From: Solimonas sp. SE-A11
Lineage (GTDB): Bacteria; Pseudomonadota; Gammaproteobacteria; Nevskiales; Nevskiaceae
Direction: 5' to 3'
DNA length: 64,000 bases
NCBI RefSeq assembly: GCF_030345715.1
Contig: NZ_JAUASX010000008.1
Span: 124,001 to 188,000, forward strand
In this document: positions 36,528 to 62,668 of the stretch, piece after piece
Numbering within the stretch: the first letter of the stretch is position 1
Layout: each line of letters opens with the position of its first letter
The notes under the pieces: generated by a model
What the model saw: the letters and a program-made list of their open reading frames with translations, nothing else
Database searches by the model: none
Told to the model about the DNA's origin: nothing
Position numbers and translations under genes: made by a program

Positions 36528-38420
36528 ATGGGCACTGGCGTCGACGACGATATCAAGCGTGACTTCCTGCAGGAGGCGGGTGAGCTGGTGCAGCGCCTGT
36601 CCGAGCAGCTGATCGACCTGGAGAAATCCCCGGACGATCCCGAACTACTGAATGCGGTGTTCCGGGCCTTCCACACCGTCAAGGGTGGTGCAGGCTTCCT
36701 GGAGCTGCATCCCCTGGTGGAGCTGTGCCACGTCACCGAGGACGTCTGCAACGGCCTGCGCAGCGGCCAGGTAAAGCTCGACAGCACCATGATGGACTGC
36801 CTGCTGCAGTCGCTGGACCAGGTGCAGCTGATGCTGGACAGCGTCGCCAAGGACGAAGCCCTGCGGGCCGCACCGGAAGACCTGGTCGATGCCCTGCGCA
36901 CGCTGGCGGCCTGCGCCGCCGCGCCGGCACCGCAGATGGTGGTGGCCGCGCCCGTGGCCCCGGCGGCCGCGCCGGCTAGGGACATGATCACCGACGACGA
37001 ATTCGAGGCGCTGCTGGACCAGTTGCAGGGCAAGGCGCCTGCGGTAGTAGCTGCTGTGCCTGCGGTTGAACACCCCTCGCCCGCTTGCGGGAGAGGGGAG
37101 GGGGAGAGGGTTTCTGTAAATGTCGGCGGCTCCTCACAGGCAAGCTCTACAGCGCCCTCTCCCCCCGCCCCTCTCCCGCAAGCGGGCGAGGGGAGCAAGA
37201 AAGAACCCGCCGAGACCCAGGTCCGTGTCGACACGCAGAAGCTGGACCGCATGATGAACCTGGTCGGTGAGCTGGTACTGGTGCGCAACCGCCTGAAGTC
37301 GCTGCAGCAGCGCTCCTCCTCCGACCCGGTGTCGCGGGCGGTGGCCGAGCTGGACTTCATCACCCGATCGCTGCAGGGCGCGGTCATGCAGATCCGCATG
37401 CAGCCGATCAAGCGCGTGTTCTCGCGCTTCCCCAAGCTGGCGCGCGACGTCGCCCGTGGCCTGGGCAAGCAGATCGAGGTGGAGCTGCAGGGCGAGGACA
37501 CCGACCTGGACAAGAACCTGGTCGAGGCCCTGGCCGATCCGCTGGTGCACATGGTGCGCAACAGCGTGGACCACGGCATCGAGCTGCCGGACGTGCGCCA
37601 GCGCGCCGGCAAGCCGGCGGCGGGCCGCCTGATGCTGGCGGCGCAGCAGCAGGGAGACCATATCCTGATCACGGTGCGCGACGACGGTGCCGGTATCGAC
37701 CCTGACCGGCTGCGCCAGAAGGCCGTGCAGAAGGGCCTGGTCGATCCCGCCGCGGCGCAGCAGATGACGCCGGAGGAATGCCTGGACCTGATCTTCCTGC
37801 CGGGCTTTTCCACCAAAGAGCAGATTTCCGACCTTTCCGGCCGCGGCGTCGGCATGGACGTGGTCCGCTCGCGCATCCGCGAGCTCAACGGCCACGTCGT
37901 CATCGAATCCAAGGTGGGGCAGGGTACCTGCTTCCGCATTCGCGTGCCGCTGACGCTGGCGATCCTGTCGGCGCTGATGGTCCACGCCGGCGGCCGTCGC
38001 TACGCGTTGCCGCTGAGCCCGGTGCGCGATGTGTTCGTGCTGGACGAGACCAAGGTGCGCAAGCTGGATCGCTGGGACGTGGTGATGGTCCGCAACGAGC
38101 CGCTGCGCCTGGTCTACCTGGACCCCTGGCTGCAGGCTGCCGCCAGCGACGCCCCGCGCCATGTCGCCGTGGTCACGGTGGATGAGGAACGCTACGGCTT
38201 CGTCGTCAGCGAGGTGCGGGGCCGCGAGGAAGTGGTCATCAAGCCGCTGGGCGCCTCGCTGCGCGGCCTCAGCGGCGTGGCCGGCGCCACCGTGATGCCC
38301 GACGGGCAGGTGGCGCTGATCCTGGACCTGAGCGGCCTGGTGCAGGCCTATCGTCAATCGCTGATCTCCGCACAAACGGCCGCCCCACGGCCATCAAACC
38401 TGGAAAACGGGCATGGATAA
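36528..38420 (+). CDS. cheA: chemotaxis histidine kinase CheA (first system)
   Basis: The 630-residue kinase has an HPt P1 domain with phosphorylatable H49 (AFHTVKGGAGF), an Ala/Pro linker with the conserved DDEFEALLDQLQGKAP patch, then P3 dimerisation, P4 ATPase ([29 protein letters not shown]) and P5 CheW-like domains. No clear P2 domain is seen. Residues 182-222 are encoded by a REP-type inverted repeat inserted in frame in the linker. It overlaps motC by eight bases, likely giving coupled expression. It should phosphorylate the adjacent CheY. Confidence 0.95.
   Translation: MGTGVDDDIKRDFLQEAGELVQRLSEQLIDLEKSPDDPELLNAVFRAFHTVKGGAGFLELHPLVELCHVTEDVCNGLRSGQVKLDSTMMDCLLQSLDQVQLMLDSVAKDEALRAAPEDLVDALRTLAACAAAPAPQMVVAAPVAPAAAPARDMITDDEFEALLDQLQGKAPAVVAAVPAVEHPSPACGRGEGERVSVNVGGSSQASSTAPSPPAPLPQAGEGSKKEPAETQVRVDTQKLDRMMNLVGELVLVRNRLKSLQQRSSSDPVSRAVAELDFITRSLQGAVMQIRMQPIKRVFSRFPKLARDVARGLGKQIEVELQGEDTDLDKNLVEALADPLVHMVRNSVDHGIELPDVRQRAGKPAAGRLMLAAQQQGDHILITVRDDGAGIDPDRLRQKAVQKGLVDPAAAQQMTPEECLDLIFLPGFSTKEQISDLSGRGVGMDVVRSRIRELNGHVVIESKVGQGTCFRIRVPLTLAILSALMVHAGGRRYALPLSPVRDVFVLDETKVRKLDRWDVVMVRNEPLRLVYLDPWLQAAASDAPRHVAVVTVDEERYGFVVSEVRGREEVVIKPLGASLRGLSGVAGATVMPDGQVALILDLSGLVQAYRQSLISAQTAAPRPSNLENGHG
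37073..37193. repeat. REP-type inverted repeat inside the cheA reading frame
   Basis: Perfect 26-base arms (37073-37098 and 37168-37193, core CTCGCCCGCTTGCGGGAGAG) flank a 69-base centre. Copies of the same family are intergenic elsewhere in the window. Here the frame stays open and encodes PSPACGRGEGE...PAPLPQAGEG in the P1-P3 linker. Confidence 0.85.
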
Positions 38421-39153
38421 GCTCTCAGCCATCGGCGTGGTACTCGCCTTCGTCGCCATCGTTGGCGGCAGCATCCTCAAGGGCAGCGGTGTCTCCTCGC
38501 TGTTCGGTGCGGCCGCCTTCGTCATCGTCATCCTGGGCACGCTGGCATCCATCTTCATCCAGACGCCCGGGGCGGTGTTCAAGCACGCCATGAAGATCGT
38601 GCGCTGGGTGTTCAAGCCGCCGCAGCAGGACCCGGAGGCGCTGATCGGTCGCATCGTCGACTGGAGCGGCATCGCCCGCAAGCAGGGCCTGCTGGCACTG
38701 GAAGGGGTGGTGGAGGGCGAGAGCGACAGCTTCATCAAGAAGGGCTTGCAGATGCTGGTGGACGGCGCCGAGCCGGACGCCATCCGCAACATCCTGGAGG
38801 TGGAGCTGTCCAGCAAGGAGCATTTCGACACCCAGGGCGCCAAGGTCTTCGAGGGCATGGGCATCTACTGCCCGACCCTGGGCATCATCGGCGCCGTGCT
38901 GGGCCTGATGTCGGTCATGAAGAACCTGGCCGATCCGAGCAAGCTCGGCCCCGGCATCGCCGCGGCCTTCATCGCCACGATCTACGGCATCGCCTTCGCC
39001 AACCTGTTCTTCCTACCGATGGCGTCCAAGCTCAAGGCGGTGATCGCCGACCAGACGCGCGTGCGCGAGATGATCATCGAGGGCCTGATCTCGATTTCGC
39101 AGGGTGAGAACCCGCGGAATATCGAATCGAAGTTGAAGGGGTATCTGCATTGA
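38413..39153 (+). CDS. motC: flagellar stator protein MotC (MotA family)
   Basis: The 246-residue protein has the four membrane segments of MotA-type stators and the C-terminal proton-channel helices (GMGIYCPTLGIIGAVLGLMSVMKNL; AAFIATIYGIAFANLFFLP). It matches MotC, the second stator type of Pseudomonas, by position after cheA and before motD. With MotD it conducts ions to turn the rotor. Confidence 0.95.
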   Translation: MDKLSAIGVVLAFVAIVGGSILKGSGVSSLFGAAAFVIVILGTLASIFIQTPGAVFKHAMKIVRWVFKPPQQDPEALIGRIVDWSGIARKQGLLALEGVVEGESDSFIKKGLQMLVDGAEPDAIRNILEVELSSKEHFDTQGAKVFEGMGIYCPTLGIIGAVLGLMSVMKNLADPSKLGPGIAAAFIATIYGIAFANLFFLPMASKLKAVIADQTRVREMIIEGLISISQGENPRNIESKLKGYLH

Positions 39154-59724: not shown

Positions 59725-61386
59725 ATGGCCGAACTCGCGCTTCCCTCTCCCGCCCGCAGCCTCAAGGACATCCCCGCCCTGCGCCAGCTGATCATGCTGG
59801 TGGGCGTGGCCGTCGCGGTGGCGGCCGGCTTCACCGTATTCAACTGGTCGCAGAAGCCGGACTTCGCGCCGCTGTACGGCAACCTGGCCGACAAGGACGC
59901 CGCCGAGATCGGCGAGGCCTTGCGCTCGGCCAAGATTCCCTTCCAGGTGGACACCGGCAGCGGCGCCGTGTCGGTGCCGGCCGAGCAGGTGCATGAGGCG
60001 CGCCTCAAGCTGGCCTCGCAGGGCCTGCCGCGCGGCAGTGCCCAGGGCTTCGAACTGATCCAGCAGGAGCAGGGCTTCGGCACCAGCCAGTTCATCGAGA
60101 CCGCTCGCTACCAGCATGCGCTGGAGACCGAGCTGGCGCGCAGCGTCTCCACCCTGCAGCCGGTGCGTGCCGCGCGCGTGCACCTGGCGCTGCCCAAGGC
60201 CTCTGCCTTTGCCCGCAACCGCGAGGCTGCCAGCGCCTCGGTGCTGGTGGAACTGCACTCTGGCCGCACGCTGGAGCCCGACCAGGTCGCCTCCATCGTC
60301 CACATGGTGGCCAGCAGCGTCTCCAACCTGCAGCCCTCCGCCGTCACCGTGGTGGACCAGAACGGCCGCCTGCTGACGCGCGACGACGGCGGCAGCCCGC
60401 TGGGCCAGAGCAGCGAGCAGTTCGAATACGCGCGCCGCGTGGAAGCCGACTACGTGCGCCGTATCGAGCAACTGCTGACGCCGATGCTCGGCGCCGGCCG
60501 TGTCAGCGCGCAGGTCACCGCCGACCTCGATTTCTCGGTCACCGAGGAGGCGCGCGAGAGCTACAAGCCCGACTCCGCCACCGTGCGCAGCGAGCAGACC
60601 TCCGAGGAGCAGCAGCGCTCGCCGGCCGGCCCGGCAGCTGGCATCCCCGGCGCCACCAGCAACCAGCCGCCGCCGCAGACCGCCAACCCGCCGCTGAACC
60701 AGCTCAGCGGTGCCAGCGGCAGCACCGATGCGCCGCTGTCGCAGAGCAAGCAGAGCTCGCGCAGCTACGAGATCGACCGCACCCTGAGCCACACGCGCCA
60801 GCCGGTCGGCAGTGTGCGCCGCCTCTCGGTGGCGGTGCTGGTGGACTACGTGCCCCGTGTCGGTGCCGACAAGAAGGTCACGATGGTGGCGCTGGGCAAG
60901 CCCGAGCTGGACAAGGTCAATGCCCTGGTGCGCGAGGCCGTGGGTTTCAGCGACCAGCGCGGCGACAGCCTCAGCGTGCAGAACGCGCCCTTCGTGCAGC
61001 CCGACGCCGTCACTCCCGACGAACTGCCGATCTGGCAGAACCCGCAGCTGCGCGACGGCCTGCGCCATGTCGGCGGTGCGCTGATCGTGCTGGCCCTGAT
61101 CTTCGCGGTGCTGCGCCCGGTGCTGAAGCAGCTGCTGGCCGCGCCGCTGACACCGCGCGGCACGCTGGCGGCCTCGCCAGGCGTCGCCGCCGGCCCTGGC
61201 GGTATTGGCGATGATGTTCGCGTGGTGTCCGATGGGCCGGTTGCCCTGGGCCGCGGGCCGGGCGGGCAGGCGATGGCAGCCCTGCCGGACCCCTACGATG
61301 AAAAGCTGCAGACCGCGCGCAGCGCCGTCACGCAGGATCCCAAGCGCGTGGCGCAGGTCGTCAAGAACTGGATCGGACAAGAGTAG
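59725..61386 (+). CDS. fliF: flagellar MS-ring protein FliF
   Basis: The 553-residue protein has an N-terminal membrane helix (about 20-38), the ring-building motifs (FAPLYGNLADKDAAEIGEALRSAKIPFQV; RGSAQGFELIQQEQGFGTSQFIETARYQHALETELARSVSTL), a Ser/Pro-rich periplasmic loop, a second helix (about 447-468) and a C-terminal FliG-binding tail (VAQVVKNWIGQE). Fourteen bases after fliE. Its stop codon forms the left edge of an inserted element. Confidence 0.96.
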   Translation: MAELALPSPARSLKDIPALRQLIMLVGVAVAVAAGFTVFNWSQKPDFAPLYGNLADKDAAEIGEALRSAKIPFQVDTGSGAVSVPAEQVHEARLKLASQGLPRGSAQGFELIQQEQGFGTSQFIETARYQHALETELARSVSTLQPVRAARVHLALPKASAFARNREAASASVLVELHSGRTLEPDQVASIVHMVASSVSNLQPSAVTVVDQNGRLLTRDDGGSPLGQSSEQFEYARRVEADYVRRIEQLLTPMLGAGRVSAQVTADLDFSVTEEARESYKPDSATVRSEQTSEEQQRSPAGPAAGIPGATSNQPPPQTANPPLNQLSGASGSTDAPLSQSKQSSRSYEIDRTLSHTRQPVGSVRRLSVAVLVDYVPRVGADKKVTMVALGKPELDKVNALVREAVGFSDQRGDSLSVQNAPFVQPDAVTPDELPIWQNPQLRDGLRHVGGALIVLALIFAVLRPVLKQLLAAPLTPRGTLAASPGVAAGPGGIGDDVRVVSDGPVALGRGPGGQAMAALPDPYDEKLQTARSAVTQDPKRVAQVVKNWIGQE

Positions 61387-61654
61387 GAGCTTATCCGTGA
61401 GCAAAACACGCACGCGTTGCTGCCAGAAATCGCGCCAGGCAAGTCGGCCGATGCGAGGTTTGGTGGCTCCAAATAAGCAGCGGCCGGCGCCGCATGGCGC
61501 GATTTCTGGCGCAACCCTTCGGGACGGGGCCATTTTCGCGCCCCGCGGCCCCTATCGCCCCTCATGTACTCGTGTACACCGCGGGCCGATAGGGTTTGCG
61601 GGACACGAAAATGGCACGCCGTCGCGTGCGCGTTTTACTCACGGATAAGCTCCT
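61385..61654. mobile_element. 270-bp MITE-like element between fliF and fliG
   Basis: The segment has 32-base terminal inverted repeats (61385-61416 and 61623-61654) differing at two positions; the ends read AGGAGCTTATCCGTGAG and CTCACGGATAAGCTCCT. Nested inside are a perfect 16-base inverted repeat GCCAGAAATCGCGCCA / TGGCGCGATTTCTGGC, GCCATTTTCG / CGAAAATGGC, and a loop around GTACTCGTGTAC. No coding capacity is seen. It exactly fills the fliF-fliG gap, and its right end supplies GGATAAG before the fliG ATG. No target-site duplication is evident, so mobility is inferred. Confidence 0.75.
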
Positions 61655-62668
61655 ATGGGCGACGCAACTCCAGCCAGCGGAATCAGCGGTGCCGAGCGTG
61701 CCGCGATCCTCCTCATGTCGCTCGGCGAGGCCGAGGCGGCGGAGGTGCTCAAGCACATGGGCGCCAAGGACGTGCAGAAGGTCGGCCAGGCCATGGCCTC
61801 GCTGACCAATGTCTCGCGCGAGCGTGCCAACGAGGTCATGGACCGCTTCGTGATGGAGCTGGACAACCAGACCGCGCTGGGCGTGGGCGCCGACGACTAC
61901 GTCCGCCGCGTGCTGGTCGGGGCGCTGGGCGAGGACAAGGCCTCGGGCCTGATCGATCGCATCCTGCTGGGCCGCAACAGCAAGGGCCTGGAAGCGCTCA
62001 AGTGGATGGAGACCCGCGCGGTCGCCGACCTGGTGCGCAACGAGCATCCGCAGATCGTCGCCATCGTGCTGGCCTACCTGGACCCGGACCAGGCCGCCGA
62101 AGTGCTGGAGCTGCTGCCCGAGCGCATGCGCGGCGACGTGCTGATGCGCATCGCGCGGCTTGACGGCATCCAGCCGGCGGCACTGCGCGAGCTCGACGAG
62201 ATCATGGAGAAGCAGTTCTCCGGCGGCACCAACCTCAAGTCCTCCAGCGTCGGCGGACTCAAGGTGGCGGCCGGCATCCTCAACCTGATGGACTCCTCGA
62301 TGGAGCAGACCATCGTCGCGCGCATCGGTGAAGTGGACGCCGACCTGTCGCAGCGCATCCAGGACCTGATGTTCGTGTTCGACGATCTCGGCGAGGTCGA
62401 CGACCGTGGCATCCAGACCCTGCTGCGCGACCTGTCCACGGAAACCCTGGGCATGGCGCTGAAGGGCGCCGACGCCCGCATCAAGGACAAGTTCGTCAGG
62501 AACATGTCCAAGCGCGCCGGCGAGATGCTGCTGGAAGACATGGAGGCCAAGGGCCCGGCCCGCGTCTCCGACGTCGAGGCGGCTCAGAAGGAAATCCTGG
62601 CGGCCGCCCGCCGCCTGGCCGATGCCGGCACGATCTCGCTGGGCGGCAAGGGAGAAGACTTTGTCTGA
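61655..62668 (+). CDS. fliG: flagellar motor switch protein FliG
   Basis: FliG forms the top of the C-ring and interacts with the stator. The 337-residue protein has the N-terminal FliF-binding domain (ISGAERAAILLMSLGEAEAAEVLKHMGAKDVQKVG), the middle domain with EHPQIVAIVLAYLDPDQAAEVLELLPE, and the torque domain (LMFVFDDLGEVDDRGIQTLLRDLSTETLGMALKGAD). Only the 270-bp element separates it from fliF; its ribosome-binding site is within that element. Confidence 0.97.
   Translation: MGDATPASGISGAERAAILLMSLGEAEAAEVLKHMGAKDVQKVGQAMASLTNVSRERANEVMDRFVMELDNQTALGVGADDYVRRVLVGALGEDKASGLIDRILLGRNSKGLEALKWMETRAVADLVRNEHPQIVAIVLAYLDPDQAAEVLELLPERMRGDVLMRIARLDGIQPAALRELDEIMEKQFSGGTNLKSSSVGGLKVAAGILNLMDSSMEQTIVARIGEVDADLSQRIQDLMFVFDDLGEVDDRGIQTLLRDLSTETLGMALKGADARIKDKFVRNMSKRAGEMLLEDMEAKGPARVSDVEAAQKEILAAARRLADAGTISLGGKGEDFV

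Follow-up and report, generated by a model that had tools for sequence, protein, structure and literature searches.

A non-coding, MITE-like element of 268 bp sits between fliF and fliG in the genome of Solimonas sp. SE-A11, having been inserted there. The element is multicopy, and its sites are found empty in related genomes. It is a member of a family in which a three-arm core is conserved and the ends vary. This is, of course, an ordinary event (a MITE insertion) at a striking place; the family behind it is less ordinary. Taken jointly, the explanation that we prefer, and consider probable, is that a MITE-like element was mobilized in trans by an IS5-type transposase, that its core is kept while its ends vary, and that at this site it would now serve as a fliG leader coupled to the translation of FliF.

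The element between fliF and fliG

The window (the whole stretch of DNA that was analysed, 64,000 nucleotides) holds the following features at this locus. The identities of FliF and FliG rest on TIGR00206 and TIGR00207, which are NCBIfam equivalog models.

59725-61386, + strand: fliF (553 aa), stop codon TAG at 61384-61386; TIGR00206, 337 bits; ORF listing
61386-61653, + strand: MITE-like element, 268 bp, GGAGCTTATCC...GGATAAGCTCC, TA on each flank; inverted repeats, three further full-length genomic copies, empty sites in sisters
61384-61416, + strand: left arm of the terminal inverted repeat (stem P1), fliF stop codon included; inverted repeats and fold
61416-61515, + strand: conserved core hairpin P2; pairs of the consensus fold, counted in 32 elements, coordinates taken by hand from alignment A1
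61516-61522, + strand: CC-N3-GG mini hairpin in the motif CAACCC-N3-GGG; alignment A1, CC/GG nearly invariant, loop bases variable
61523-61623, + strand: conserved core hairpin P3; pairs of the consensus fold, counted likewise, coordinates taken by hand from alignment A1
61623-61655, + strand: right arm of the terminal inverted repeat, its last base being the A of the fliG ATG; SD-like GGATAAG at 61643-61649
61655-62668, + strand: fliG (337 aa), ATG at 61655-61657; TIGR00207, 338 bits; ORF listing

The original prediction described a non-coding segment running from the fliF stop to the fliG start, with near-perfect inverted ends of 32 bases at 61385-61654 and nested palindromes inside. Such a segment is indeed present. 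The element proper reads GGAGC...GCTCC over 61386-61653, with TA at both flanks. Its arms stand as described, except that they reach slightly further, from 61384 to 61655: each is 33 nt long, 31 of 33 positions are complementary (94%), and 206 nt separate them. Here, the arms take in the fliF stop TAG and the first base of the fliG ATG. The internal palindromes are two inverted repeats between the arms, one at 61422-61440/61492-61510 (95%) and the other at 61529-61561/61583-61615 (82%). Positions 61370-61670 fold with an energy of -192 kcal/mol, whereas 100 dinucleotide shuffles average -120 (sd 5.6), which gives a z of -12.8; none of the 100 is as stable.

No plausible gene lies within the element; the ORFs listed over its 268 bp are short, or are out-of-frame overlaps with fliF or fliG. 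The frames of FliF and FliG are unaltered by the insertion, and fliF, fliG and the next reading frames are open. No sigma-70-type promoter was found in 61200-61800. A known RNA family was considered as the identity of the element and rejected: Rfam gave five matches over window positions 61000-62000 (E up to 10), all under their gathering scores, and the best of these, a microRNA family with an E of 8e-5, reached 33 bits where 76 are needed.

Copies and empty sites

Searching the element against its own genome gives nine matches. Four are full-length sites, these being the query itself and three more at 87-89% identity; the remaining five are opposite-strand, palindromic matches to the same copies. 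Across the four genomes of the genus, 17 full-length copies (4, 5, 4 and 4) align end to end.

FliG is present in all four of these genomes. In each of the three sisters, fliF and fliG meet in a TGATG stop/start overlap that is free of the element. One sister (G002) reads GACAAGAGTGATGGGCGAC at the junction and has a FliG 99% identical to that of the window. Another (G001, taken as Solimonas fluminis HR-BB, placed in Nevskiales, Gammaproteobacteria, and read on locus L038) has a counterpart to which the window FliG is 98% identical. A wider set of 80 relatives was fetched by FliG, the sister locus L038 among them. The fliF stop could be measured in 79, and from there the first aligned FliG residue was never more than 81 nt away; no large spacer appears.

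The original prediction of a MITE-like insertion had asked for further copies with the same ends and for the junctions of sister species, and would have given way to an old regulatory spacer had the same segment stood in all relatives with no other copy in the genome. The copies and the empty junctions contradict this. A regulatory spacer long resident in the flagellar operon would account for the exact fit from stop to start codon. It is, however, missing in three of three sisters, including the one whose FliG is 99% identical, and in the 79 measured relatives (one sister among them), and the same element stands at other sites of its own genome. The empty sites refute the old-spacer reading, which we regard as barely credible.

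The insertion reading extends to other sites. When joined flanks were searched in the four genomes (30 loci read), an element-free counterpart was found for 11 of 14 other Solimonas insertion sites. The clearest is locus L151, where the empty site reads CATTC TAA ATG and the filled site reads CATTC TAA, element, TCA ATG; this is a 3-bp TNA duplication with one base changed. Several empty sites resemble stop/start junctions (TGATG, TAAATG, TAGTG). The flanks of the window copy can be read as TA/TA or as TAG/CTA, and are no clean duplicate of the TGA in the sisters. Many relatives with GGG ends carry CTAG at both flanks, which provides TAG stops at the element ends for genes on either strand. 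Three loci (L205, L269 and L175) have elements between convergent genes, and there the flanking CTAG gives both genes stop codons at the element ends.

The preference for stop codons should not be overstated. The window has 1603 TNA sites, 33 of which are stop codons at close tandem junctions. Only 155, however, lie outside genes, so that the excess at stop codons over tolerated sites is a few-fold, well short of what a figure of 1e-11 would suggest. Nor are all insertions young: one copy in G002 (L145) and one in the window's own genome (L138) are a single insertion at an orthologous site in two species, and therefore some copies predate the species split.

We thus view the segment as a probable non-autonomous, MITE-like transposable element, which would have inserted between fliF and fliG in the present lineage after it split from the sister species. 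It would have entered a stop/start overlap, which in the sisters reads TGATG, without altering either protein sequence.

A family with a common core and variable ends

Alignment A1 holds 32 elements in 285 columns, 20 of its rows coming from the four genus genomes. The ends of these elements vary, GAGCYTATCC, GGGYCTGTT and GGGCTCGTAA being among the types; the core is common to all. Sequences matching the interior occur in genomes across the order. A covariance model was built on 126 positions of the core. At an E of 1e-3 it matched in 70 of 85 genomes of the order, and at 1e-4 in 62 of 274 genomes of the class and in 66 of 299 genomes of a phylum sample. Within that last sample, 47 of the 66 matching genomes lie outside the class, 36 of them in a single family (f195). 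Five loci from outside the class were read, all from f195, and all five are elements of 266-272 bp with inverted ends. Weak matches may include false positives, as overlapping matches on both strands occur.

The window's own genome has at least 15 core matches, the copy numbers from covariance searches being lower bounds. Six further elements there (L457-L462, on contigs C12, C1 twice, C23, C41 and C37) have the same core and ends of the GGG or GGA type. A single genome thus carries at least two end types side by side. In another genome (G061), a core match at C25:152578-152718 spans 141 nt rather than the usual 126 or so, which suggests a small internal insertion.

The loci read were mostly the best-scoring matches. 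From 200 given, 179 were kept, those dropped being duplicate sites and 12 at contig edges or with short flanks; 13 of the 179 had weak inverted ends and were dropped in turn, as were one duplicate and three weak loci among 29 new ones. Elements bounded by strong inverted ends measure 265-273 bp in 171 of 191 loci, a spread that is limited by ends having been sought only within about 14 nt of the model ends. An element of near-constant length, with a covarying three-arm fold and differing ends, is the reverse of the usual MITE.

No match for the window element was found in phages, nor for the element itself in plasmids; other family members do match plasmid records of Azotobacter, Halomonas and Pseudomonas. 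In one plasmid search, which listed 20 of 50 records, 4 of those listed match the element and 16 match a ppiC gene in the query flank. The members in the four plasmid records have no feature annotated there (the gene table is incomplete). Together with the lack of an Rfam match above threshold, this implies that members may be missed in many genomes. In the open-access literature we recognized no paper describing the family; subscription journals fell mostly outside that search, and a prior description elsewhere is possible.

Probable mobilization in trans

An element that has no plausible gene is not an insertion sequence (IS), and is at most the substrate of one. Among ten genomes searched, one (G205) carries five copies of an IS of 807-808 bp ending in GGGCGTGTTAACACTA, with [CT]TA on its left flank and TA[AG] on its right. 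Its two ORFs match the two halves of the NCBIfam model transpos_IS5_3, scoring 104 and 101 bits where the whole protein needs 110. In the same genome, four of the seven elements read carry GGGCCTGTTAACACTA at one or both ends, which is identical to the IS tip at 15 of 16 positions. Elsewhere, 8 of 185 loci match that tip at 15 of 16 and 30 more at 14 of 16. The match is commoner in the elements of G205, which are mutually related, and is not confined to them.

The idea that the element is an internal deletion derivative of this IS was rejected. The IS lacks the core: when it was compared by blastn with 179 elements, the matches listed were only the tips (best E 0.03) and others at chance level. 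This holds for the one IS that was tested.

Sequences of the CTAG and TNA types are the targets of IS5 subgroups. Flanks of these two types occur in the window family, and this, with the tips that several G205 elements share with the 808-bp IS, is its likeness to the IS5 family (transpos_IS5_3; PF13340 and PF01609). The difference is that the element has no transposase gene, and that no IS5 partner was found with the ends of the window copy. In the four genus genomes (G000-G003), the exact 14-mer end GAGCYTATCCGTGA occurs at element ends only. A 13-mer of the window ends has 53 matches in 85 genomes of the order; 13 inverted pairs are formed, all at element spacing, and 27 matches are unpaired. 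Neither the 14-mer search in the genus nor the 13-mer pairs in the order gave an autonomous partner with GAGCYTATCC ends. Neither PF13340 nor PF01609 finds a match in two of the element-bearing sisters (G001 and G003). One unpaired match to the end motif AGAGCYTATCCRT lies in the window at 38413-38425 on the - strand; similar unpaired matches recur in the three sisters, and the sequence there may thus be coding and conserved for that reason.

Most simply, these elements would be moved by IS5-family transposases that act on their tips. The transposases would work in trans and recognize only the terminal 15-20 bp, and the G205 IS is likely to be the mobilizer of those elements that share its tips. 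The core, absent from the matching IS, would persist independently and change its tips over time; we infer that different lineages acquired different tips. Movement by some other system, of the Tn3 type for example, by a RAYT or by another transposase, would explain why the searches in the genus gave no IS5-type partner having these ends. The short TNA or CTAG-type flanks, and the tips shared with an IS5-family IS in G205, make a system other than IS5 quite improbable.

Orientation within operons

The final orientation set comprises the earlier loci, 20 more fetched regions and nine loci from searches, with genes predicted by a simple caller (whose call at one locus, L144, conflicts with a plain ORF reading). 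In 18 Solimonas loci, the right end lies within 25 nt upstream of a predicted start in 16 and the left end in none; the left end lies within 10 nt of an upstream stop in 11, and the right end in one. As one insertion is counted twice (L138 and L145), the 16 orientations are about 15 events. For other GAG-ended loci (n = 33), counted in the same way, the starts give 16 v 8, which is not significant, and the stops 14 v 3, with p = 0.013. GGG-ended loci (n = 126) give 30 v 22 for starts (not significant) and 39 v 27 for stops, and the remaining loci (n = 14) give 2 v 3 (not significant) and 3 v 7. An earlier scoring, which used other end classes, had given 15 v 0 of 17 Solimonas loci and 14 v 6 of 28 other GAG-ended loci.

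A ribosome site borne on an arm cannot explain this bias, since the terminal arms are nearly identical. Terminator-like hairpins differ between the strands. At a looser setting, the antisense strand carries more than the sense strand in 14 of 18 Solimonas loci, with the reverse in none, in 12 v 3 of 36 other GAG-ended loci, and in 39 v 17 of 129 GGG-ended loci, the end classes in this count being slightly unlike those used for orientation. At a stricter setting, antisense v sense is 11 v 1 for Solimonas, 5 v 4 for other GAG-ended and 17 v 10 for GGG-ended loci. Solimonas operons may keep the sense orientation because the antisense strand has more of these hairpins, and selection against terminators inside operons would fit the bias. 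In the window, a short GC-rich hairpin at 61614-61629, about 25 nt before fliG, scored as terminator-like on both strands. A member on a plasmid of P. aeruginosa PA83 (L387, about 2394-2660) lies with no listed feature between genes for an acyl-CoA dehydrogenase and a CaiB/BaiF CoA-transferase, and is antisense to both of these same-direction neighbours.

The core fold: RNA or DNA

The consensus fold consists of stem P1, formed by the terminal repeats, hairpins P2 and P3, and the CC-N3-GG mini hairpin. In 77 of its 96 pairs, both sides have changed in at least one sequence. Within P2 and P3, 94.1% of cells are paired, and double changes occur in 50 of the 66 pairs, where shuffles average 25.7 and controls with slid partners give 14-20; the fold was derived from the same 32-row alignment on which it was scored, and the controls remove relatedness only partly. 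In P1, double changes are seen in 27 of the 30 pairs, where shuffles give 22.8.

Conservation of the structure as sense RNA predicts that G-U mismatches outnumber A-C mismatches, and these were counted in 82 non-redundant elements at pairs having a Watson-Crick majority. For P2 the counts are 90 v 40, for P1 71 v 74 and for P3 49 v 70. Where there is no G-U excess, in P1 and P3, palindromic DNA or copying from arm to arm explains the pattern equally well. The evidence for selection on the fold at the RNA level is thus mixed.

These counts bear on a different view of the family, in which the conserved unit is mainly a structured RNA that functions in the regulation or processing of the mRNA, and mobility is secondary. 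The strong covariation in P2 and P3, the G-U excess in P2 and the sense orientation of the Solimonas copies (16 v 0) all speak for it. Against it are P1 and P3 with their missing G-U excess, the GGG-ended copies with no significant bias on the start side, and the absence of any Rfam family at gathering score over the window element. A mainly functional RNA seems unlikely to us.

Translation of fliG

The original prediction that the right end provides the ribosome-binding site of fliG is borne out by position: the right arm supplies the 30-odd nt immediately upstream of fliG, a weak GGATAAG included. In the predicted fold of the filled junction, every base of GGATAAG has an unpaired probability of 0.00. 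If a ribosome is assumed to stand on the fliF stop with a footprint of -12 to +14, the mean rises to about 0.55 for GGATAAG and 0.8 for the ATG, the first two G of GGATAAG still being paired (0.08 and 0.09); shorter or longer footprints change the computed exposure. At the empty junction of G002, the computed unpaired probability over the 15 bases that precede the ATG is about 0.57 on average.

In this model, the right arm would serve as the leader of fliG. Stem P1 would hide the ribosome site until it is loosened by a ribosome that terminates on the fliF stop, located at the base of the left arm. Translation of FliG would in this way stay coupled to that of FliF, and the computed folds suggest that the insertion may keep, or even tighten, this coupling. 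The original prediction also allowed that the long hairpin could shift the FliF:FliG ratio; the effects on FliG given here are computed ones.

The same folds could be read to mean that the insertion blocks fliG translation, and that the strain is becoming non-motile. The ribosome site is nearly all paired (0.00 over GGATAAG), and its two G remain paired even with a ribosome on the fliF stop. Yet fliF, fliG and the following frames are open, FliG shares 98% identity with that of S. fluminis, and the terminating ribosome is predicted to open the stem in part. A block of fliG is, for these reasons, rather unlikely, and a leader that is coupled to FliF is the reading that we retain.

Relation to known elements, and significance

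As a rule, MITEs keep their ends, whereas their interiors either derive from an IS or vary freely. In the window family it is the core that stays conserved from order to order and the ends that change, and the matching IS does not contain this core. The ERIC, Correia/NEMIS and RUP elements are short and palindromic; they lie in intergenic DNA that is transcribed, and can affect the mRNA. The window family is like these in being short, palindromic and placed in transcribed intergenic DNA; it differs in length, sequence and host range from their usual descriptions. Correia elements are also treated in PMC10969869, a review that describes bacterial MITEs as short, non-coding and multicopy, with inverted ends and a transcript that folds into a stable hairpin, and that presumes them to be moved in trans by IS elements. 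The window family has the same traits: it is short, non-coding, inverted-ended, multicopy and hairpin-forming.

A wider proposal can be made. The element might represent a proteobacteria-wide, non-autonomous family of about 268 bp, whose structured core has its own origin, outlives its ends and survives by repeatedly taking on the tips of any IS5-family IS available, and which couples translation when it enters stop/start overlaps, so that operons stay functional. In this full form the proposal is doubtful, though worth entertaining.

What the original prediction saw was one insertion with its ends. Beyond this, the core is part of a family found across the class and outside it, and the ends are its variable part. 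If the core is truly independent of the IS that donates its tips, these elements are hitch-hikers that switch vehicles, and what conserves a non-coding core across orders becomes a testable question. The insertion into a stop/start overlap is, in turn, a natural experiment in how well an operon tolerates a hairpin of 268 bases between the genes of two partners in the flagellar rotor.
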